Source: a virus
Strand: one strand, 5' to 3'
DNA: 40,706 nucleotides
IMG/VR virus record: IMGVR_UViG_3300043427_001929
Location: 1 to 40,706 of that record
The notes below the pieces were generated by a model that worked only from the letters and a program-made list of their open reading frames with translations, was not told where the DNA came from and ran no database searches. Shown piece by piece: positions 14,618 through 40,706 of the stretch (positions within the stretch are counted from its first letter, which is position 1; each line of letters begins with the position of its first letter). The position numbers were made by a program, and so were the translations under genes.

Positions 14618-14874
14618 CTGACGAGGACGCTGTGCCAGAGATGCCAAGCAATGACACTACCTATTGGACGCCCTATCTGCGCCGCGTCTGGTGGGCGGTG
14701 CGCGATAAGGACGGATGCGATGCCGAGTACGACACGGCGCATCACGCGATCGACGCCTACCATAACTGGTGGAACGTCGAGTGGCCGGAACACGCCCCCT
14801 ACCGCGTCGTGCGGTGCGAAGTCCACGAGACGGAAGTGGACCCGATTGGGATGGAGGTAGACAATGAGCCATAA
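14614..14874 (+). CDS. Small acidic Trp-rich protein (86 aa)
   Basis: The start overlaps the previous stop (ATGA). The protein is acidic and aromatic (WTPYLRRVWWAVRDKDG, YHNWWNVEW) and ends with CEVHETEVDPIG. No family is recognised. The high aromatic and acidic content makes a protein-binding role plausible. It overlaps the next start by 11 bases. Confidence 0.5.
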   Translation: MTDEDAVPEMPSNDTTYWTPYLRRVWWAVRDKDGCDAEYDTAHHAIDAYHNWWNVEWPEHAPYRVVRCEVHETEVDPIGMEVDNEP

Positions 14875-15418
14875 CATCGACCTCCCGCGCCATCGCTACG
14901 TCCACGTCATCGAGTCCGCGGTGCATCGGGGCGGGGCCAAGGACAAGACCATTCCCTGTGTGTGGTGGGGGATGAGTGCCACCCCGGGCCGAATGTTCGG
15001 GTGTCACATTCTGCTGGAGTCTGGCGCGATGGTCGTGGACCTCCCGCTCCACGCGCTCCGGCACCAGGCCGACGCCACGCAGCTCTGGACCTGCGACAAG
15101 GCCCAGCGGTGGGATGCCTATGGCTGGCACGTCGAGGCGCACGAGCCGGCGTATCTGACGGGCCTCGACTGCCGGGTGCTGACCGATGACCACAAGCACG
15201 TTGCGGACCTCGGGGAGCTGTGGTTCCTGCTGGATCACGTCAGCGACGGCTACTCGCTGGAGCCGGGCCAGCACAAGCACCACTGGGTCGTCGCGCTGGA
15301 CGATGGCACGTTCACCTGCGTCCCGCAGGACCAAGTGCTAGTGACCGAGAAGAGCTTCACGAAGACGGGCGGCATCCCGCCCATCAAGCGGCAGACCCGC
15401 GTGTGGAGTTGCGAATGA
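14864..15418 (+). CDS. Conserved-looking protein of unknown function (184 aa)
   Basis: The sequence is His/Trp-rich and soluble, with CVWWGMSATPGRMFGCHILL near residues 32-51, VDLPLHALRH and a C-terminal WVVALDDGTFTCVPQDQVLV. The latter resembles small beta-barrel domains of phage early proteins. No catalytic motif can be named. ATGA coupling to the next gene. Return to high GC marks the end of the low-GC patch. Confidence 0.5.
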   Translation: MSHNIDLPRHRYVHVIESAVHRGGAKDKTIPCVWWGMSATPGRMFGCHILLESGAMVVDLPLHALRHQADATQLWTCDKAQRWDAYGWHVEAHEPAYLTGLDCRVLTDDHKHVADLGELWFLLDHVSDGYSLEPGQHKHHWVVALDDGTFTCVPQDQVLVTEKSFTKTGGIPPIKRQTRVWSCE

Positions 15419-15612: not shown

Positions 15613-17245
15613 TAACACCGCCAGCGCGTGGCTGGGTGACCACCAGTGGGGCTGTGCCGCCTGCGGATTCACCGAGCACTTCGACACGCTGGCCGAGGAG
15701 ATTGGCGTCACCCTCCCCGAGCGGGCCAACAAGGGCCTGACCCTCGCGGAGTACGCCGAGCGGAAGGGGCTGTCACTCGCCACGTTACACGCGGCCGGCG
15801 TCGAAGAGCGGGTGGGGAAGTTCGGGGACGCCATCCTCGCCATCCCCTACCGGGACGCCGATGGGCAGCTCATCCGCACCAAGTTCCGCACCCAGAAGGG
15901 GACGTTCTGGGACAAGGACGGCACGGGCACCCCGCTCTACGGGCAGGATGTCCTTGCGCGGACCCCCATCACGGCTCCCGTTCTCATCGTCGAGGGCGAG
16001 TCGGATTGCCACGCGGGCTGGCAGCGGGGGCTCTGTGTGGTCGGGCTCCCCGGGGCCTCGCAGTGGCGCTCCGAGTACGCGCCGCTCTTGGCCGGACGGC
16101 AGGTTTACGTCTGGCAGGAGCCGGACGAGGGCGGGGCGACGCTGGTCGCCTCCATCGCTAAGGATCTCCCGAAGGCGCAGGTGCTGGCTGGCATCGAGTA
16201 CCAGGGCTCGCCGGTCAAGGACCTCTGTGACCTGCACCAGGTGCTACCCGAGGCCGAGGCGTTCGACCGCTTCCTGCGGCAGGTGATGCAGCGGGCCACG
16301 CCGATTGGGGCTGAGGGGCCGGCGGTCGCGTTCGACTCCATCTCGGGCGATACGCTGCAGCACCTGCTCGATGAGAAGCTCGCCCCGATTGACGCGGTGC
16401 CGACGATGCTCCCGATGTGGAATACGATGTGCCGGGGTGGGGGCGGTGGGATTGGGCTGGCCCGGGGCTGGTTCGTCACGATCGGCGCGAACACGGGCAC
16501 CGGCAAGTCGCTCATCGGGCTCAACCTCGCGCACGAAGCCGTCCGGCACGGCGAGGTGCCGACGTTCTTGTCGCTGGAGATGTCCCGGTCGGAGCTGGCG
16601 ACGCGGTATCTCGCTATCGCCGCGGGCGTGCCGGTCATCGAGCTGGAGCAGGGGCCGGGGTTCAAGGCGACGACCTACGAGCTGGCCCAGCGGCGCGTGA
16701 ACGAGCTGCGGGAGCAGACGGGCGGGCATCTGCTGGTCAACCGCCGGCCGCTCTCCAAGCTGTCCGATGTCACGGCCTGTATGCGGCACTATGCCGAGAA
16801 CCACGGCTCGAAGTACTTCGTGTTGGACTACCTGCAGCTGGTTTGGACCGCCAACGCGCATAGCATCCACGACCGGATGGAGCTGGTCGCGCACCAGCTC
16901 CGCGACCTGACGCACACGTTGGGCGTGACGTTGGTGGCCCTCTCGCAGTTCAATCGCCAGACCTCGGCGGCCCGAGCCGAGCGTCCGGTGGCGCAGGGGC
17001 TGATGGGCGGCAGCGCGATTGAGAATGACAGCCACCAGGTGCTGCTGTTCGATCACTCGCGGTTTATGCGGAGCGGGATGCAGGCGGACACTTGGCTCAT
17101 CGTGGACAAGAATCGCCACGGGAGTGTGGACGATATCCCGGTGCGGTGGGACTACACCACCTTGCGCCTCTTGCCCAGAGCAATGAGCATTGAAGAACAG
17201 GAACAGATTCACGGACGTTTGACTACTTACGGGAGGATGAAGTGA
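15506..17245 (+). CDS. Primase-helicase fusion, T7 gp4-like
   Basis: This 579-residue protein unwinds the fork and makes RNA primers. A zinc site at Cys31/His34/Cys50/Cys53 is followed by a TOPRIM domain with VLIVEGESD (159-167). The RecA-like DnaB helicase has Walker A GANTGTGKS (327-335), Walker B FVLDYLQLV (438-446) and a later ALSQFNRQ motif (sensor region). The length is like T7 gp4 (566 aa). The start is preceded by CGAGGAGAG. The end overlaps the methyltransferase start. With no polymerase in the genome, it probably works with the host replisome. Confidence 0.93.
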   Translation: MHTMDARGVLAQALMRRKGTKKQGKALAFRCPRHLDNTASAWLGDHQWGCAACGFTEHFDTLAEEIGVTLPERANKGLTLAEYAERKGLSLATLHAAGVEERVGKFGDAILAIPYRDADGQLIRTKFRTQKGTFWDKDGTGTPLYGQDVLARTPITAPVLIVEGESDCHAGWQRGLCVVGLPGASQWRSEYAPLLAGRQVYVWQEPDEGGATLVASIAKDLPKAQVLAGIEYQGSPVKDLCDLHQVLPEAEAFDRFLRQVMQRATPIGAEGPAVAFDSISGDTLQHLLDEKLAPIDAVPTMLPMWNTMCRGGGGGIGLARGWFVTIGANTGTGKSLIGLNLAHEAVRHGEVPTFLSLEMSRSELATRYLAIAAGVPVIELEQGPGFKATTYELAQRRVNELREQTGGHLLVNRRPLSKLSDVTACMRHYAENHGSKYFVLDYLQLVWTANAHSIHDRMELVAHQLRDLTHTLGVTLVALSQFNRQTSAARAERPVAQGLMGGSAIENDSHQVLLFDHSRFMRSGMQADTWLIVDKNRHGSVDDIPVRWDYTTLRLLPRAMSIEEQEQIHGRLTTYGRMK

Positions 17246-18741
17246 TGACGGACTTGACGTTCGTGGAACTCTTTGCCGGGGTCGGCGGGATGAGCCGCGG
17301 GCTGGAGACGGCGGGATGGCGATGTGTGGGCCACGCCGAGTGGGATGCCCACGCGCGGGCCGTACTCCGAACCCAGTGGCCGGCGGTGCCGCTGTGGGGG
17401 GATGTGTCGCAGCTCAACGGACACGACATCGTGCAAGAGGTCGGGCCGTTTACGATGCTGACCTTCGGAGCGCCGTGCCAAGACTTCTCGATTGCCGGGA
17501 AGCGATCGGGGATGGATGGCGAGCGCTCGGTACTGGTGTTGGATGCGTTGCGTATCTGGGAAGAGTCGCAGGCCCCGTTCGCGCTGTATGAGAATGTGGT
17601 TGGGATGTTGTCCTCAAACAAAGGAGAAGACTTTGCCGGAATCCTCTCAGTATTCGTCGGAGACGCTGTCGCTGTTCCCGCCCGAGGATGGAAGGGCGGC
17701 GGAGGTATCGTGCGTGGTCGTCGCGGAGTCGCCGCGTGGCGGGTACTGGACGCTCAGTACTTCGGGGTACCGCAGCGCCGTCGCCGCGTCTTTGTCCTCG
17801 GTACTCGACACGCCGGCATTGATCCCGCCGAAGTACTATCTCTCCTCGACGGCGTGTCAGGGCATCCTGCGCCGCGCCGAGCGCCGCGGCAAGGCGTTGC
17901 CACCGATGCTGGACGAGGCGCTGCGCTCGCGGTCAACATCAGCGGCGGCGTCGGACGACTCGACCCCGTGATGGGGACGTTGGACGCGGACGGCGCAAGC
18001 ACGACCGCAATCGGCGCACAGACGCGTGGCGTTGTGCTTGCGTTCGCGCAGAATACTCGTGACGAAGTTCGCGTCGTTCCGAACGACATCGTCTGCGCTC
18101 TCGCTGCACAACCGGGGATGAAACAGCAGAACTACATCCTGACCTACGACGCCCGAGGGAACGGCGAGGGCGTTGTCGTCAACGCCCTCACGGGCGACCA
18201 CAACAACCGCGTGACCGACTACACCGCCATCATCCTCCGCAACCGCGAGGGCAAGCCGGGCGGTGGCAAGGGGCCGCTCTTGTCCGAGGGTAAGTCGCTT
18301 ACCCTCGGCACGTCGAACGATCAGGTCGTGTTTATGGTCGATAAGCAGACCGGCCTATCGACGGAAGGCATCGCGCCGACCCTCAAAACCGATTTATCGC
18401 ATCAGATGGGGCCGGTGTTGGCTCCCGCGCTCACGATGGGGGCGCACCCCGCCGCGCCTGGCCTGAATGGGCAGGACGCTCACCTGTTTGCCGCCGCACT
18501 CCACGCCGTTCAGCCCGGCATCCCACGCCGACTCACGCCCGTCGAGTGCGAGCGGTTGATGGGGTGGCCTGATGGCTGGACAGCGCAGGGCCTTGACGAG
18601 CAGGGCCGCGCTTACGCCCTCTCCGACACCGCCCGCTACAAGGCGTGCGGCAACGGCGTGGCCTCTCCGGTGGCGGCGTGGATTGGCTTCCGGCTCCGTG
18701 AGGTACTGGAAGGGTCATCGTGGGAGGTCGCCAATGACTGA
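17242..18741 (+). CDS. dcm: DNA (cytosine-5) methyltransferase
   Basis: This 499-residue enzyme transfers a methyl group from S-adenosylmethionine to C5 of cytosine. Motif I FVELFAGVGG (7-16) binds the cofactor, Cys79 in GAPCQDFS is the catalytic nucleophile, Glu117-Asn-Val is motif VI, QRRRRVF (178-184) is motif VIII and GNGVASPV near the C-terminus is motif X. A long insert (about 200-420) is the target-recognition region; its sequence gives no specificity. GTG at 17242 and ATG at 17245 are both usable. Likely protects phage DNA from host restriction; no partner endonuclease is seen. Confidence 0.92.
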   Translation: MMTDLTFVELFAGVGGMSRGLETAGWRCVGHAEWDAHARAVLRTQWPAVPLWGDVSQLNGHDIVQEVGPFTMLTFGAPCQDFSIAGKRSGMDGERSVLVLDALRIWEESQAPFALYENVVGMLSSNKGEDFAGILSVFVGDAVAVPARGWKGGGGIVRGRRGVAAWRVLDAQYFGVPQRRRRVFVLGTRHAGIDPAEVLSLLDGVSGHPAPRRAPRQGVATDAGRGAALAVNISGGVGRLDPVMGTLDADGASTTAIGAQTRGVVLAFAQNTRDEVRVVPNDIVCALAAQPGMKQQNYILTYDARGNGEGVVVNALTGDHNNRVTDYTAIILRNREGKPGGGKGPLLSEGKSLTLGTSNDQVVFMVDKQTGLSTEGIAPTLKTDLSHQMGPVLAPALTMGAHPAAPGLNGQDAHLFAAALHAVQPGIPRRLTPVECERLMGWPDGWTAQGLDEQGRAYALSDTARYKACGNGVASPVAAWIGFRLREVLEGSSWEVAND

Positions 18742-19426
18742 CGCACTCACCTTCGTCGTCCCGTGGGCCGCGCTCTGTTCGGACAACCGCAAGTTCGTCA
18801 GCGGGTCGTTCCATCTGTCGCGGGAGTACCGCAACAGCAAGCAGCTCATCGGGCAGTTTGCATTGGCGGCGGCTCGGAAGGCCAAGTGGGTGAAGGCCGA
18901 GGGGCCGCTCGCGCTGGAGGTGGTGGTGCGGGAGCCGGATCGTCGGCGGCGCGACCTCAACTGGTCGAAGAACTGCAAGGACGGCATCACCGCCGGCGAC
19001 GGCGTGTGGTGGGATGACAGCCAGGTGCGGTGGGAACTCTGGCGGTTCAGCGAGGAGGGGGCGCCGGATAAGGCGACGGCGGGCGCAACGATTACCATTC
19101 GGGTCCTTGACAACTTCCGGGATATGCCCGATACTGGGGACGATGCCCAGCCCCCGGTGGGACGATCCCGAGAGCTTCGGCCCGCACCTGCCGAAGGACT
19201 ACAACGCTCGCGGCGTGTTCGCGGAGGGTCCGCAGCCGCCGTCGAACCCGCTGGGCCGGCTCCAAAGCGGGCGGGGAGCGGACGCGGGAAAGCACGCACT
19301 CCCCGCCAACGTGGCCAGGGCGGCCTTGTCCCGCGAGGGGCGGCGGAGGGGGCGGCTCAAGCTGGCCCTCTTCGTCCACAAACCAAAGCCCCCCGCGCAC
19401 CCCGTCATCACGAGCGTCCGAAATGA
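18734..19426 (+). CDS. rusA: RusA-like Holliday-junction resolvase with run-on C-terminus
   Basis: ATG lies 8 bases inside the end of the methyltransferase gene. Residues 1-135 carry the RusA pattern: PWAALCSDNRKF, then acidic residues Asp69, Asp74, Asp83 and Asp94/95 around DLNWSKNCKDG and WWDDSQV. RusA dimers cut Holliday junctions to resolve recombination intermediates. Normal RusA ends near residue 120-135. Here the frame stays open for ~95 more residues that are Arg/Pro/Gly-rich with poor third-position GC, because the gene at 19143 occupies another frame. The TGA does overlap the ATG at 19423. The extension may be translated but is probably not functional. Confidence 0.75.
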   Translation: MTDALTFVVPWAALCSDNRKFVSGSFHLSREYRNSKQLIGQFALAAARKAKWVKAEGPLALEVVVREPDRRRRDLNWSKNCKDGITAGDGVWWDDSQVRWELWRFSEEGAPDKATAGATITIRVLDNFRDMPDTGDDAQPPVGRSRELRPAPAEGLQRSRRVRGGSAAAVEPAGPAPKRAGSGRGKARTPRQRGQGGLVPRGAAEGAAQAGPLRPQTKAPRAPRHHERPK

Positions 19427-20263: not shown

Positions 20264-20652
20264 CGGGCCACCTTCGCTTGCTTCGCGGATCGCTTCGCCG
20301 CCTGTCGAGCCTCGGCCTTCGCGGTCCAGTACTTGCGCCACCGCTCTTGGGCGTAGTGCCGGCGCAAGATGGTGAGGTGTTCGCGCTTGCGGCGGGTGGC
20401 CTCGTCGGTGCTGGCCTCGGCGTCCGCTTTCGCCTTCGCCTCGGTGGCCTTCCGTGCCACGTCGGCGCGGGCCATCGCTCGGGCCTTCATCACGTCGGCG
20501 GGGTGCCACCAATGCGACCGCCCGCCGTGGCGCGTGGTGCCGGGACGGACGACGGGGGCGAACCCCCATTGCGCCATCCGTTGCGTGAAGCCTCGGGCCT
20601 GACAGCCCCAGAAGGCGGCGGCGTCCCGGCTTGATAGGAGGGCGTCGGTCAC
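20260..20652 (-). CDS. HTH protein with basic coiled-coil tail (130 aa)
   Basis: GTG start overlapping TGA. Residues ~6-50 look like an excisionase/MerR-type HTH (SSRDAAAFWGCQARGFTQRM, then WGFAPVVRPG and HWWHPADV). Residues ~60-130 are a long Ala/Lys/Arg helix ending RWRKYWTAKAEARQAAK. It probably binds DNA and may regulate the leftward block or replication. Confidence 0.55.
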   Translation of the reverse strand: MTDALLSSRDAAAFWGCQARGFTQRMAQWGFAPVVRPGTTRHGGRSHWWHPADVMKARAMARADVARKATEAKAKADAEASTDEATRRKREHLTILRRHYAQERWRKYWTAKAEARQAAKRSAKQAKVAR

Positions 20653-20876
20653 AGGTCCAGATCCTCCGACTGCAGCTCCTGGTCGGGGATCAGTCCGTTC
20701 CACCCGTCGCGGTAAGCCTCGATGATGCCGTCCGCGAGGGTTTTCAGCCGTCGGCGTTCGTCGGCGGGGAGTGGCTCGGCGTTCAGGTAGGCATAGACGA
20801 CCTTCAGGATCGGACGCCACCGGGGGGTGGGCGTCACGTTCGCGGGGTCGGGGAAGGGGAAGGCGGTGGCGGTCAT
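20649..20876 (-). CDS. Small acidic protein (75 aa)
   Basis: ATGA overlap sets the start at MTATAFPFPD. A helical middle (ILKVVYAYLNAEPLPADERR, RLKTLADGIIEAYRDGW) leads to a strongly acidic end (DQELQSEDLDL). No motif is recognised. The stop overlaps the GTG of the HTH gene. Confidence 0.5.
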   Translation of the reverse strand: MTATAFPFPDPANVTPTPRWRPILKVVYAYLNAEPLPADERRRLKTLADGIIEAYRDGWNGLIPDQELQSEDLDL

Positions 20877-20989
20877 CGGCAGAATCGCTCCATAAACCAG
20901 CGCAGGACATCGGCGCAGGGCAGGCAGTAGCGGGGCCGTTTGTGGCTGCGGGTCGATTTCCCGCAGGACGTGCAGACTGGGTAGGTCAC
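20873..20989 (-). CDS. Zinc-ribbon micro protein (38 aa)
   Basis: GTG start overlaps the upstream TGA and the TGA overlaps the next ATG. Two cysteine pairs (CTSC at 6-9 and CLPC at 22-25) separated by a basic segment (KSTRSHKRPRY) make a complete zinc knuckle. Such micro zinc proteins are common in phage early regions. Function unknown. Confidence 0.5.
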   Translation of the reverse strand: MTYPVCTSCGKSTRSHKRPRYCLPCADVLRWFMERFCR

Positions 20990-21162
20990 GGGGTCGCCTC
21001 TGGCGGCTCGAAGTACGGCACCCAAACCCAGGCTTGAACATAGGCCCCGCAATCATCGCCCCGCGAGATTTTCGCGTCGGCGTCAATCTGAACATCGTCG
21101 CCGTCCGCATACATCGCACGGGCGGCGTGGATAATGTCGCTATCGGTCATATGGTCGCGCAT
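20986..21162 (-). CDS. Small acidic protein (58 aa)
   Basis: The start at 21162 is preceded by GAGGAG nine bases upstream; a second ATG lies four codons in. The N-terminal half is helical and acidic (TDSDIIHAARAMYADGDDVQ) and the C-terminal half is aromatic (GAYVQAWVWVPYFEPP). No family is recognised. It is coupled to the zinc micro gene by GTGA. Confidence 0.5.
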   Translation of the reverse strand: MRDHMTDSDIIHAARAMYADGDDVQIDADAKISRGDDCGAYVQAWVWVPYFEPPEATP

Positions 21163-21548: not shown

Positions 21549-21733
21549 ACGCTGGCCTCCCCTTCCGCGATCTCCAGCGCGTCACGGACCCACTGGCGCA
21601 GTTCATAACTTGACAAAGATCGGAGCCAGAGTTCGCCCCATTCTTCCAGCGTTTGACGATCCGCGTCGTCTAAAAGCCGATTGAGGAGCGCGGCGCGGTC
21701 GGCGGTTTCTACGTCAAAGGTCGGGTGCGTCAT
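21545..21733 (-). CDS. Small acidic helical protein (62 aa)
   Basis: ATGA overlaps at both ends. It is almost entirely helical, with clear Asp/Glu excess: ADRAALLNRLLDDADRQTLE, EWGELWLRSLSSYELRQWVR, then DALEIAEGEASV. No cysteine, no membrane segment and no recognised motif. Confidence 0.5.
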   Translation of the reverse strand: MTHPTFDVETADRAALLNRLLDDADRQTLEEWGELWLRSLSSYELRQWVRDALEIAEGEASV

Positions 21734-21945
21734 ACGGCGAAGTCCTCCGGGCGAAAGTGGATGAGGGTGTCTTCGAAGGTGCGGGGGCCGTTCTCGGGCC
21801 ACCCGTGCGCGGCGTGGGCGATGATGGTTTCCGCCATCTCGACCAGCTCCGACCGCTCGACGGGGAGGAGTTCCTCCCCGTCGTAGAAGGCGAGCAAGTA
21901 GTCGGACAGGCCGACGCGCCCGGACAGGCGGAGGGATTGACTCAC
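21730..21945 (-). CDS. Small acidic protein (71 aa)
   Basis: The GTG start at 21945 overlaps the TGA of the clamp-like gene. It begins SQSLRLSGRVGLSDYLLAFY, then a helix (ERSELVEMAETIIAHAAHGW) and FEDTLIHFRPEDFAV. It follows the clamp-like gene directly and could be a partner of it, but that is only positional. Confidence 0.5.
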   Translation of the reverse strand: MSQSLRLSGRVGLSDYLLAFYDGEELLPVERSELVEMAETIIAHAAHGWPENGPRTFEDTLIHFRPEDFAV

Positions 21946-22610
21946 GGGGTGGCCTCCGCGAGTACAGCGGCGGCGTCTGGCGCGGCGTCCGGGGCGGTGG
22001 GTCTGGCGGTGACGGCATCCCACGCCGCCACCGCCGCCCCCGTCACCACGTCTCGGCAGGGCATCCACAGGCCCAGGGCGTTCGGCTCATCGGGGTAGCG
22101 CACGAGCATACACCCGGACGCGCCGTCAAACGCCACTGACACCTTGCCCGTCTGTCTCCCGACCTTCACCGCGAAGCGATCCGCCAGGGCGGGGTCGAGG
22201 CCGATTGACGGCACGGGCTGCCCATCCTCGCGGGGGCGGTACACGTTCCGCCACGTTGGGAAATCTTGGGGGTCCATCATGTCCGCGAGCGTGGCCCCGA
22301 TGGTGCGCCCCACGCTATCATACAGCGTGACCGCGACCGGGGCGGTGTCGGGCATATCCGGCAGGGCTATGGCGATCGTCTCGACCTTCGCCGCGGTCAG
22401 CTTCCGCGGCTCATGGAAGCGCAACAAAGCCGCGGCGTCGTGGCGGTCGGCGGCGGTGCGGTGGACGCCGAGCGTGTGCCCGTTCGTCGCCACGGCAAGG
22501 CCGGACGGCTCTATAAGGACGCCGTGCAAGTTGGGGCGGCTCTCTTCCGTGCCAACGTGCGGGAGGACGTAGCGTAGGGCAGCGGCGTGGAGCGTAATAG
22601 TGCGGGGCAT
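21942..22610 (-). CDS. Short sliding-clamp-like protein (DnaN-like), 222 aa
   Basis: The protein resembles the DNA polymerase III beta clamp in several places: RPNLHGVLIEPSGLAVATNG then HTLGVHR (about 25-51), a DPQDFPTWRNV segment (about 112-122) like the clamp YPDWRRV, and a C-terminal LGLWMPCR (about 178-185) like the clamp VMPMRL end. Beta clamps have ~366 residues in three domains; this has room for about two, so three copies, not two, might form a ring. After about residue 190 it is an Ala/Pro-rich tail. RBS GAGGAG precedes the ATG. It would tether or redirect host polymerase. Confidence 0.6.
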   Translation of the reverse strand: MPRTITLHAAALRYVLPHVGTEESRPNLHGVLIEPSGLAVATNGHTLGVHRTAADRHDAAALLRFHEPRKLTAAKVETIAIALPDMPDTAPVAVTLYDSVGRTIGATLADMMDPQDFPTWRNVYRPREDGQPVPSIGLDPALADRFAVKVGRQTGKVSVAFDGASGCMLVRYPDEPNALGLWMPCRDVVTGAAVAAWDAVTARPTAPDAAPDAAAVLAEATP

Positions 22611-22675: not shown

Positions 22676-22930
22676 TTAGGCGTCGGCGCCGGTCAGTTCC
22701 CACGTTTCGTTCACGTGCCGTGCGATTTCGTCCCAGTCTACGCCTTGCACAAACGCGAGCGCGTAGTCACGGGCTATTCCTTCCTGGCTTGTCATCTCGA
22801 TGTACTCTTCCACTATCTCCCGTGCGCTGTCCGCTGTCATCGCTTGCCCGTCCGGGTCGTACCCGTCAAAGACTTCCAAATGCACCCGCCACGTTTCGTA
22901 GTTCGTCCAGCCGTTGTAGCCGCCGCGCAT
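22676..22930 (-). CDS. DUF7249-like phage/plasmid protein (84 aa)
   Basis: The start MRGGYNGWTNYETWRVHLEV has the WTNYETWRVxLE signature that I recall from a widespread small family of mobile elements (DUF7249-like, from memory). The C-terminal half is acidic and helical (REIVEEYIEMTSQEG, then DWDEIARHVNETW). The leader CCCCAGAGAGAGGA upstream is almost the same as that of the clamp-like gene. Function unknown. Confidence 0.6.
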   Translation of the reverse strand: MRGGYNGWTNYETWRVHLEVFDGYDPDGQAMTADSAREIVEEYIEMTSQEGIARDYALAFVQGVDWDEIARHVNETWELTGADA

Positions 22931-22985
22931 TGTTCGTTCCTCTCTCTGGGGTTGGGTTGACTTGCTGTGCTGTGCTACGTTGACA

Positions 22986-23123
22986 CTACAGCCCGAGGAT
23001 GTCAAGGGCCGCTAGGAATGCCATCGCGCCGCCAAAGATAAACGCGGGCGCGTTGCGCTCCCACCATGTCGGCGGGGGGTCGGGGCGGATCGGCGGCAGG
23101 GGTTCCCATTGTTCGGGGCGCAT
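22986..23123 (-). CDS. Small membrane protein (45 aa)
   Basis: ATG overlaps the upstream TAA (TAATG). A Pro-rich N-terminus (EPLPPIRPDPPPTWWERN) precedes one membrane helix (APAFIFGGAMAFLAALDILG, about 25-44). Translation coupling and the clean N-out/helix layout support a real gene; function unknown. Confidence 0.5.
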   Translation of the reverse strand: MRPEQWEPLPPIRPDPPPTWWERNAPAFIFGGAMAFLAALDILGL

Positions 23124-28096: not shown

Positions 28097-29233
28097 ATGG
28101 CCTTGACCGTAGCGACCGCAGGGACGGGAGTAGCGCGGACGGCGCACTATGTGACGCCGACCGGGGCGAGTGCGCCAATCCAGACGCTCCTGCTCGAACC
28201 CCAGCGGACGAACCTCGTACTCTATTCGCAGGACTTTGGTAACGCGGCGTGGGCGAAGAGCAACGCAACGATTACCGCAAATACAACGACCGCGCCAGAT
28301 GGTACTACGACGGCGGACAAGCTCGTCGAGAATACGGCGAACGCCCAACATCGCGTACTTGCAGTCATTACAGTTGTCGCTGGCGTAACACATACGATGT
28401 CGTTTTATGTCAAGGCCGACGAGCGAACGCGAGTCAGTATCTTCGACAATGCGTCGGCGGCTGACACCGAAATGATTTTTGACCTTTCCAATGGTACGGT
28501 GGTTCGAACTGGCACAGCGGTAGTTGCATCCAGCATTACCTCGCTGTCAGGAGGGTGGTATCGCATTACGGCGTCAAGTACGCCAACCGTAACGTCAATG
28601 CAATCCGCGTTGCGACTGGTGCAGAGTGGGACGACCAGTACCTACACAGGCGACGGCACGAGCGGCCTGTTCCTCTGGGGCGCACAGATTGAAGCTGGCT
28701 TGCCCTCCTCGTACATCAAGACCGAGGGGACGACGGTGACGCGGAACGCGGACTCGTTCTACCTCCCGTTCACGGCTCCCCCGCAGCAGATGACGGTGTA
28801 CGTCCGGGGGGTGAGCGAATCCCCGAACCCTAGCACATCGTGGCTGTTTATCGGAGACGCCGCCGCCGCCGCGCCGCGCTTGCGGATGGATTTTGGAGTG
28901 TCCCGCGTTGGGATGACACAGAACAACGGCAGCACGGAAGTCACTGACGCTGGGCCAGCCGCCTCGTTGGCCGCACGAGGGACGATGCAAGAGGGACGAT
29001 TCGTGCTGTTCGCTGACGGGTCAGTGCAAGCGAACGTCTCGCTGGGCGGTGCGGCAGAAATATCTGGCGTCCGCACGGCTGCCAACGCGCTCCCCGCCTT
29101 GTGGTCCGCGACTCGCCTGTATGTCGGCCAGCGAGGTGGGACGGCCATCAGCCAGTTCGCCTACACCCACATCGCGGTGGTCCCGGGGGTGCAGTCGATG
29201 GCGGAGATGCGAGCGATCGCGGGGGTGTCGTAA
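28097..29233 (+). CDS. Fibre/lectin-like structural protein, copy 1 (378 aa)
   Basis: It carries LLLEPQRTNLVLYSQDF (about 35-50) and APDGTTTADKLVENT (about 69-83), features of carbohydrate-binding laminin-G/ConA-like domains common in phage head or tail fibres. The C-terminal half (after PPQQMTVYVRGV) is another beta domain and ends AYTHIAVVPGVQSMAEMRAI. It lies in the same frame as its neighbours on both sides, separated only by TAA codons. It is a tandem paralogue, with equal length, of 29234-30370. A surface-binding role is inferred. Confidence 0.7.
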   Translation: MALTVATAGTGVARTAHYVTPTGASAPIQTLLLEPQRTNLVLYSQDFGNAAWAKSNATITANTTTAPDGTTTADKLVENTANAQHRVLAVITVVAGVTHTMSFYVKADERTRVSIFDNASAADTEMIFDLSNGTVVRTGTAVVASSITSLSGGWYRITASSTPTVTSMQSALRLVQSGTTSTYTGDGTSGLFLWGAQIEAGLPSSYIKTEGTTVTRNADSFYLPFTAPPQQMTVYVRGVSESPNPSTSWLFIGDAAAAAPRLRMDFGVSRVGMTQNNGSTEVTDAGPAASLAARGTMQEGRFVLFADGSVQANVSLGGAAEISGVRTAANALPALWSATRLYVGQRGGTAISQFAYTHIAVVPGVQSMAEMRAIAGVS

Positions 29234-30370
29234 ATGGACGAGTTGATTGTCGCCACCGCCGCCACCGGGGTCGCCCGCACCTCGCATTACGTCACCCCGA
29301 CGGGGGCCAGCGCCCCGATCCAGACGTTGCTCTTGGAGCCGCAGCGAACGAACCTGTGCATCCGGTCCGAGGAGTTTGATACGTGGACGCTGGCAAGCGC
29401 AACCGTCACGGCGAACACGACGACGGCACCAGACGGCACCCTCACGGCAGATACGCTGAGCGTCACCTCTTCCGCTGGCGGCATTTATCGGGTCGTCACG
29501 TTCACGGGCGACGGGGAAAAATGCGCTGCGGTGTTTCTGCGTGCGGGCACCGCCACCAAGACTCGCCTCACGATTAGAGACCAGTCTGCGGCTGTGAACC
29601 GCCACGTGGTTGACGTCACGTGGACCGCTGGCGTTCCGACTCTGGCGACAGTTGCAGGCGCAGGCACACTGTACCCGGTCGAAGCACTCGCGAACGGCTG
29701 GTATCGCATCCTGTTCAGCGCAACGGGCGTTGTGGCGGCCAATGTGCATCGCTACCTCATTACCGACAATGAGGTGGTGACTGGAACGGTCGGGCTCTGG
29801 GGCGCACAGGCCGAGAACGCGGTGGTGCCGTCCTCGTACATCAAGACGCAAGCCACGACGGTGACGCGGAACGCCGACAGCCTCTATTTCCCGTTCACCG
29901 CGCCGCCGCAGGCGATGACGGTGTACGTGCGGGGGGTCAATGCTGGTGCATACCAGAGCCAGACAAACGCCGCACGTGTGTTGCACATTGGTGACATCAA
30001 TACGGGAGCCGACCCCCGCTTTTCGCTGGTGCGAAATGCTGGCACAAGTCAGGTGCAAACACTTTACGACGATGGCGTGACACTACGTTCCGGCAACGCT
30101 ACGCCGTCGCCTATTCCCGTGTTGCGCGACATCATTGAGCATCGCGGCGTGCTTTCGTCATCGTGGGTACCGTCAAGTGGCATCAGCGTTAACGGCGGAG
30201 TCGAGCAGACGGGCACGACGACTGCCTCTGGCCCTGCAACGGCGTGGGCTAATCCGCGCCTCTATATTGCTGGTCACGCGGACCACGACCAGTTCGCCTA
30301 CACACACGTCATTGTCGCCGCTGGCGAGCAGACGATGGCGACGATGCGTTCTCTCGCTGGAGTTGCCTGA
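29234..30370 (+). CDS. Fibre/lectin-like structural protein, copy 2 (378 aa)
   Basis: The ATG follows the TAA of copy 1 with no gap and in the same frame. The N-terminal ~45 residues are almost the same as copy 1 (VARTSHYVTPTGASAPIQTL, LLEPQRTNL), the middle diverges, and landmarks PPQAMTVYVRGV and FAYTHVIVAAGEQTMATMRS match again. The pattern of conserved ends and variable middle suggests a duplicated adhesin with diversified binding surface. No separate ribosome site is visible, so translation likely depends on termination-reinitiation. Confidence 0.7.
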   Translation: MDELIVATAATGVARTSHYVTPTGASAPIQTLLLEPQRTNLCIRSEEFDTWTLASATVTANTTTAPDGTLTADTLSVTSSAGGIYRVVTFTGDGEKCAAVFLRAGTATKTRLTIRDQSAAVNRHVVDVTWTAGVPTLATVAGAGTLYPVEALANGWYRILFSATGVVAANVHRYLITDNEVVTGTVGLWGAQAENAVVPSSYIKTQATTVTRNADSLYFPFTAPPQAMTVYVRGVNAGAYQSQTNAARVLHIGDINTGADPRFSLVRNAGTSQVQTLYDDGVTLRSGNATPSPIPVLRDIIEHRGVLSSSWVPSSGISVNGGVEQTGTTTASGPATAWANPRLYIAGHADHDQFAYTHVIVAAGEQTMATMRSLAGVA

Positions 30371-40458: not shown

Positions 40459-40706
40459 ATGGCAAAGAAGAAGCTGGGCAGTACGAAGCTGACCGACGAC
40501 GTGCTCGTTACTTCCGTCTCCCTGACGGCTGATGTAACGGGGAACCTGCCGGTCACGAATCTGAACAGCGGCACCGGCGCGTCTGGGACCACCTTCTGGC
40601 GTGGCGACGGCACCTGGGCGGCTGCCCCGGGGTCAGGCACGGTCAACAGCGGCACCGCCAACCAGATGGCGTACTACGCCTCTACGGGCACAGCGGTCAG
40701 CGGGCT
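40459..40706 (+). CDS. Tail-fibre protein, 5' part (continues at base 2)
   Basis: ATG at 40459 gives [20 protein letters not shown], then [15 protein letters not shown], in frame to the window end and then with base 2 of the window. The N-terminus is shared with 920-2155. The start lies 7 bases after the previous stop with no clear Shine-Dalgarno sequence. Confidence 0.8.
40557..40706. repeat. Right copy of terminal direct repeat
   Basis: Matches 1-150 except for two silent third-position changes (TCT for TCC, ACA for ACC). See the left copy. Confidence 0.9.

Follow-up and report, generated by a model that had tools for sequence, protein, structure and literature searches.

A trimmed relative of the bacterial sliding clamp in a phage genome without a DNA polymerase gene: a predicted docking pocket without the ring-closing surfaces

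The 222-residue protein encoded at positions 21942–22610 on the minus strand of a 40,706-nucleotide viral genome (the whole stretch analysed here, hereafter 'the window') is almost certainly derived from DnaN, the bacterial β sliding clamp. It would correspond to a trimmed clamp consisting of domain II and the C-terminal half of domain III; this part is predicted to form the hydrophobic pocket that receives clamp-binding motifs of the QLxLF type, but it lacks both ring-closing surfaces. We propose, giving the idea about an even chance, that it acts as a non-ring pocket module competing for host clamp-binding proteins. The features to which we refer are as follows.

21942..22610, minus strand: short DnaN-like (β-clamp-derived) protein, 222 aa (PHROG matches, family profile against the PDB, AF2, Foldseek)
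22458..22604, minus strand: module 1, residues 3–51, first half of β domain II (profile against β 129–190, 56 bits; AF2 strands and helix)
22242..22430, minus strand: module 2, residues 61–123, second half of β domain II (order, AF2 strands, conserved P118)
22053..22202, minus strand: module 3, residues 137–186, best read as the second half of β domain III (profile best on β 310–366)
21942..22052, minus strand: C-terminal tail past the clamp end, residues 187–222 (low confidence, AF2 pLDDT 53–76)
21730..21942, minus strand: small downstream ORF of about 70 aa; its GTG start overlaps the clamp-gene stop (GTGA; junction CCCCGTGAGT)
22676..23005, minus strand: upstream neighbour, DUF7249-like, 109 aa (PF23907, E = 3.7e-6; synteny)
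18572..19426: RusA

The ORF begins with an ATG preceded by AGGAG 8 nt upstream, and its GC content by codon position is 72/54/85%. A sister phage (L005) carries an orthologue with 36–38% identity on the same strand and at the same locus; in both genomes the gene sits between a RusA-type gene and the terminase genes. The ribosome-binding site, the codon composition and this orthologue together identify the ORF as a coding gene. The first-pass annotation, made from the window alone, had described here a shortened clamp relative (222 residues against 366 for β), transcribed from the minus strand, away from the replication genes, and together with small genes; length and placement both hold, and the gene overlaps the small downstream ORF by GTGA. 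The product of another ORF (20649–21119, minus strand) resembles that of this small ORF at its C-terminus, by eye, and matches the Pfam family AcrIIA4 weakly, below the threshold (E = 0.0065).

Single-sequence searches with the 222-residue protein against Pfam, the PDB, phage genomes and viral contigs returned no match, and the route to its family led from a PHROG match to the sister phage L005 and then to the wider family. The protein matches phrog_3007 with E = 1.8e-13 over nearly the full profile (residues 4–187 on positions 2–186 of 190), a profile that also gives hits in 9 of the 14 control genomes; it further matches phrog_947 (DNA polymerase processivity factor) with E = 1.5e-5. In a direct scan, phrog_3007 itself matches Escherichia coli DnaN (E = 6.5e-24). 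Using tblastn from L005, we reached Thiohalocapsa LS06-2018-MD04, Pseudomonas D14E, Kagunavirus Sciku, Dhillonvirus, Acinetobacter AB4P2, Vibrio phages, Erwinia Gungnir39 and phiHSIC; these individual matches are weak by E-value, and the joint profile is strong. The profile search suggested as a check, run with the profile of the phage family, returned PDB DnaN entries at E = 3e-24, over β 136–250 and again over 316–366. Family members also match PF02767, which is the central domain of DnaN; two reach or come near the curated cut-off, and others fall below it. The clamp-like segments initially noticed at the start, middle and end of the protein are real, and correspond to β 136–177, 237–247 and 316–366.

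Scanning IMG/VR on the basis of an alignment, we recovered 297 coding stretches with a short clamp gene. Our comparisons rest on 48 members: 37 from these viral contigs (thinned to less than 80% identity) together with a further 11, among them the window and L005; two of the 48, L022 and L012, are the same protein. The suggestion that such a gene would be unusual fails, given these 297 viral-contig stretches and many GenBank phages. The phrog_3007 proteins annotated as short 'DNA polymerase III beta' (in Guernseyvirinae Sciku, Dhillonvirus, phiHSIC as ORF2, Pseudomonas D14E and Vibrio phages) share with the window protein their length class, the start at domain II, the end and pocket residues, but in the window protein the YY pair and several of the pocket residues are gone, and a long tail is present. 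The window protein is a diverged member of phrog_3007. Annotated short DnaN-like proteins already exist in many phages, often mislabelled RusA, and what is new here is the architecture. We found neither a functional study of short phage clamps nor a description of a pocket-only reduced architecture in the literature searched, whose coverage did not extend to subscription literature.

Structure prediction of the single chain, part of the other check suggested, also yielded a clamp fold. The AF2 model of the window protein has a pLDDT of 86.1 and a pTM of 0.78, and that of a D14E-type relative a pLDDT of 90.9 and a pTM of 0.87; both show three successive modules, each of a strand, a helix and strands. 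For each of the two models Foldseek listed 50 PDB rows, all of them DnaN, the best E-value for the window protein among the rows listed being 7e-8. TM-scores are moderate (about 0.55–0.6 by query). The alignments mostly span 260–280 columns for queries of 222–224 residues, about 50 columns longer, as would be expected if a segment of DnaN were skipped. The protein is thus homologous to DnaN and has the clamp fold.

The missing parts can be located by spacing. In all 48 relatives only 18–47 residues precede the equivalent of R152, compared with 151 in β, and the equivalents of P242 and M362 lie 61–76 residues apart, the window protein included, compared with 120 in β. Domain I is therefore lacking, and domain III is shorter by about 50 residues. 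Module 1 carries the docking-pocket residues R25, L28, T42, G44, H45 and L47. Module 2, whose profile by itself is weak (4 bits), ends with FPTWRNV, the counterpart of FPDYRRV in β (241–247), and its P118 is kept in 47 of the 48 relatives. Module 3 ends with MPCR, the counterpart of MPMR (362–365). The missing stretch is best read, though not with certainty, as the first half of domain III: the third-module profile scores 19.7 bits on residues 310–366 of E. coli β against 4.4 on 250–315, but the two halves score more closely (19.3 against 16.6 bits) on the DnaN of a Microcystis phage. This DnaN, encoded by Microcystis phage Mae-JY04 (L016:9542-10669), is a full-length protein of 375 aa, 34% identical to E. 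coli β, in a genome that also carries an integrase-type recombinase and a CI-like repressor. In the β structure, the second half of domain III packs against the first half of domain II, so that the retained part would form an unbroken unit around a central pocket. In the tail, AF2 predicts helices at residues 191–201 and 213–218.

The protein therefore does not contain the three complete DnaN domains (PF00712, PF02767 and PF02768), and neither PF00712 nor a full-length DnaN is found elsewhere in the 40,706-nt genome. Nor does it contain two complete domains of the PCNA/gp45 type, since sequence and model show three half-domain modules. The first-pass proposal of a two-domain clamp is not supported, and neither is the PCNA- or T4-like trimer that would follow from it; both sides of the ring-closing interface are absent as well, as in all 48 relatives examined.

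The partition between what is kept and what is lost follows the function of the residues in β. The β pocket is lined by Arg152, Leu155, Thr172, Gly174, His175, Arg176, Leu177, Pro242, Arg246, Val247, Asn320, Tyr323, Val344, Val360, Met362, Pro363, Met364 and Arg365, and the dimer interface involves Ile78, Phe106, Ile272 and Leu273 together with ion pairs between 74–105 and 298–304 (PMC11139829). All of these pocket residues fall in retained segments and all of the named interface residues in missing ones, so that the window protein lacks the head-to-tail ring interface (Ile78, Phe106, Ile272 and Leu273). Across the family, identity to E. coli β is 0.72 in pocket columns and 0.18 elsewhere (p = 2e-8). 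The invariant R-L-G of the viral-contig set stems partly from the search pattern; when the conservation test was rerun without the scan-motif positions the values were 0.69 and 0.15, and with the tblastn-found members only they were 0.66 and 0.19. In the window protein 11 of the 17 alignable pocket residues are identical to E. coli β, and judged from these residues the predicted partner-binding pocket is present. Its replacements (Y323 by L142, R246 by N122 and M364 by C185) suggest that it may bind a different motif. Tyr153-Tyr154 is retained in most relatives, but not in the window protein or L005.

These features set the protein apart from known clamp systems. It shares with bacterial β the fold, domain II, the second half of domain III and the pocket, but has neither domain I, nor about 50 residues of domain III, nor the dimer interface (222 against 366 aa). 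E. coli β* is a UV-inducible short form of DnaN without domain I, which retains domain III in full and assembles into rings; members of the phage family likewise lack domain I, but also part of domain III. T4 gp45 and PCNA have the clamp fold in common with the window protein, and gp45 is viral too, but they consist of two complete domains, form trimers and gave no sequence match to it. Finally, Twort Gp168 and similar clamp inhibitors are also phage proteins, directed against the clamp system of the host. Gp168 occludes the DNA channel of the host's clamp and, by this description, differs from the window protein in not being presented as a clamp relative (PMC11139829).

The window is probably a complete or circularly assembled genome, as positions 1–150 and 40557–40706 form direct terminal repeats of 150 nt (99% identical). 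The reported absence of a DNA polymerase is confirmed: our search for a missed one of family A, family B or Pol III α type found none in the 40,706 nt. The replication genes listed at first were partly recovered: a primase-helicase whose C-terminal domain is of DnaB type, a PD-(D/E)XK-like exonuclease and RusA are present, and the 'SSB-like' gene was not confirmed; an O-like initiator, a C5 methyltransferase and terminase are also encoded. The earlier 'SSB' is possibly the gene at 14864–15418, which has a PHROG match labelled ferredoxin (E = 1e-17) and no Pfam match. The C5 cytosine methyltransferase (17242–18741, 499 aa) has its Pfam match in two pieces, and its residues 72–270 are overlapped by a stretch similar to phrog_864 (primase). 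Among the virion genes, two adjacent 378-aa genes (28097–29233 and 29234–30370) share common repeats, with 83% and 73% identity, and represent a tandem duplication.

A shortened clamp relative in a polymerase-less phage is a recurrent situation: of 42 records with the gene that were searched, some of them fragments, 35 show no PolA and seven carry one, and none shows PolB or Pol III α. Moreover, the gene was undetected in four of the five sister phages, whose primase-helicases are 61–76% identical and in which a highly diverged copy could have been missed. In one of them (L001) both flanking small genes are present, including the DUF7249-like one. The gene is thus not a core part of the replication machinery. 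Several relatives adjoin recombination, primase or helicase genes, but no conserved partner gene emerged, no family recurring more than four times among the 140 neighbours of 37 loci. Given its absence from sister phages, the mixed polymerase content and the mixed neighbours, we conclude that this is an accessory gene, tied neither to the presence nor to the absence of a polymerase. Clamp-binding motifs are not enriched among the proteins of the phage itself (2 found, 2.7 expected), which, with the lack of a conserved neighbour, points to host partners. One such candidate, QVLLF in the phage helicase, was rejected, as it lies inside the DnaB-type domain and is mostly conserved in sister phages without the gene. 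A search of genome contigs for the host, with the clamp pair and with the primase-helicase, gave no match.

The protein would thus be a soluble non-ring module, probably a decoy or an adaptor, whose pocket would bind at least one host clamp-binding protein. Candidate clients are the clamp loader δ, Hda, Pol IV/V, mismatch repair proteins, ligase and Pol III α, which may be drawn off, or contested with the host clamp, during infection. That the gene is accessory and lies on the opposite strand agrees with its product interacting with proteins of host replication, and the host-takeover role put forward at first sight remains a plausible candidate. The clamp loader is one attractive target, because δ binds monomeric β about 50-fold more tightly than the dimer (PMC11139829). 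More tentatively, and with slightly less than even confidence, we suggest that many unrelated phages may use a monomeric pocket-only decoy of this kind to strip the host of clamp-binding proteins such as δ or Hda; we found no description of such control of host replication in the literature searched. Since a phage that lacks a polymerase relies on host Pol III and its clamp, a decoy of general action could be harmful to the phage itself unless it is client-specific or timed. It should be noted that the pocket residues are conserved in ordinary DnaN too, so that their conservation alone does not establish use as a decoy; the Tyr153-Tyr154 pair kept in most relatives and the pocket replacements of the window protein also count against it. 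Should the protein bind clamp-binding motifs without being a ring, this would provide a natural competitor to the replication clamp of bacteria, a drug target, and a tool to learn which clamp partners matter during infection. Members are present in phages of laboratory E. coli, among them the BASEL phages TanjaMuster (Bas81) and SandraMuster (Bas78), which makes gene deletion directly feasible.

We may ask whether the pocket serves recruitment instead, holding host Pol III or another clamp-binding protein while the tail or a different surface delivers it to a complex of the phage. Polymerase-less phages do depend on the host polymerase, and the recombination, primase or helicase genes beside several relatives would suit such an adaptor. 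A tail extends past the clamp end in 35 of the 48 relatives, and in 24 of these 35 a P-x-[W/F] motif directly follows the MPMR end, against 5.8 in shuffled tails; the motif (seen for example in L048, L057 and L073) could occupy the pocket of the same protein or bind at another site. However, the other 13 end like β with no real tail, the Gungnir39 type being one such tail-less form, the motif has degenerated to AAW in the window protein, no conserved partner gene exists and most sister phages appear to do without the gene. We therefore consider an adaptor unlikely, if still worth keeping in mind. Somewhat more doubtful is a genuine ring of new composition, with three half-domain modules per subunit (for instance 4 × 3 = 12), giving the host polymerase processivity on phage DNA. 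Twelve modules would equal a β dimer, the fold and Tyr153-Tyr154 are kept in most relatives, and some of these are fairly basic (pI 7.9–9.1); yet the known subunit interface has lost both of its partners, the window protein has an acidic pI of 5.8 and no YY pair, the distribution is accessory and some phages with the gene have their own PolA. That the gene is a decaying dnaN copy or passenger without current function is improbable: the locus is accessory and variable, and one annotation calls the gene a possible moron, but 48 diverse members show the same truncation together with the same conserved pocket, and in the window/L005 pair the reading frame stays intact at 36–38% identity.

Lastly, a RusA-like Holliday junction resolvase, the label carried by phrog_3007 and phrog_12598, has next to no chance of being the right identification, in view of the phrog_3007 match to DnaN, the predicted DnaN fold and a separate true RusA in the same phage (18572–19426). 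Neither the window protein nor 10 relatives match the RusA domain (PF05866), and with the PF02767 matches of the family we consider the label of phrog_3007 to be wrong. It has spread with DnaN-like proteins to GenBank, where it is found in OP947166, OR544125, PQ850625, PQ850630 and other entries.
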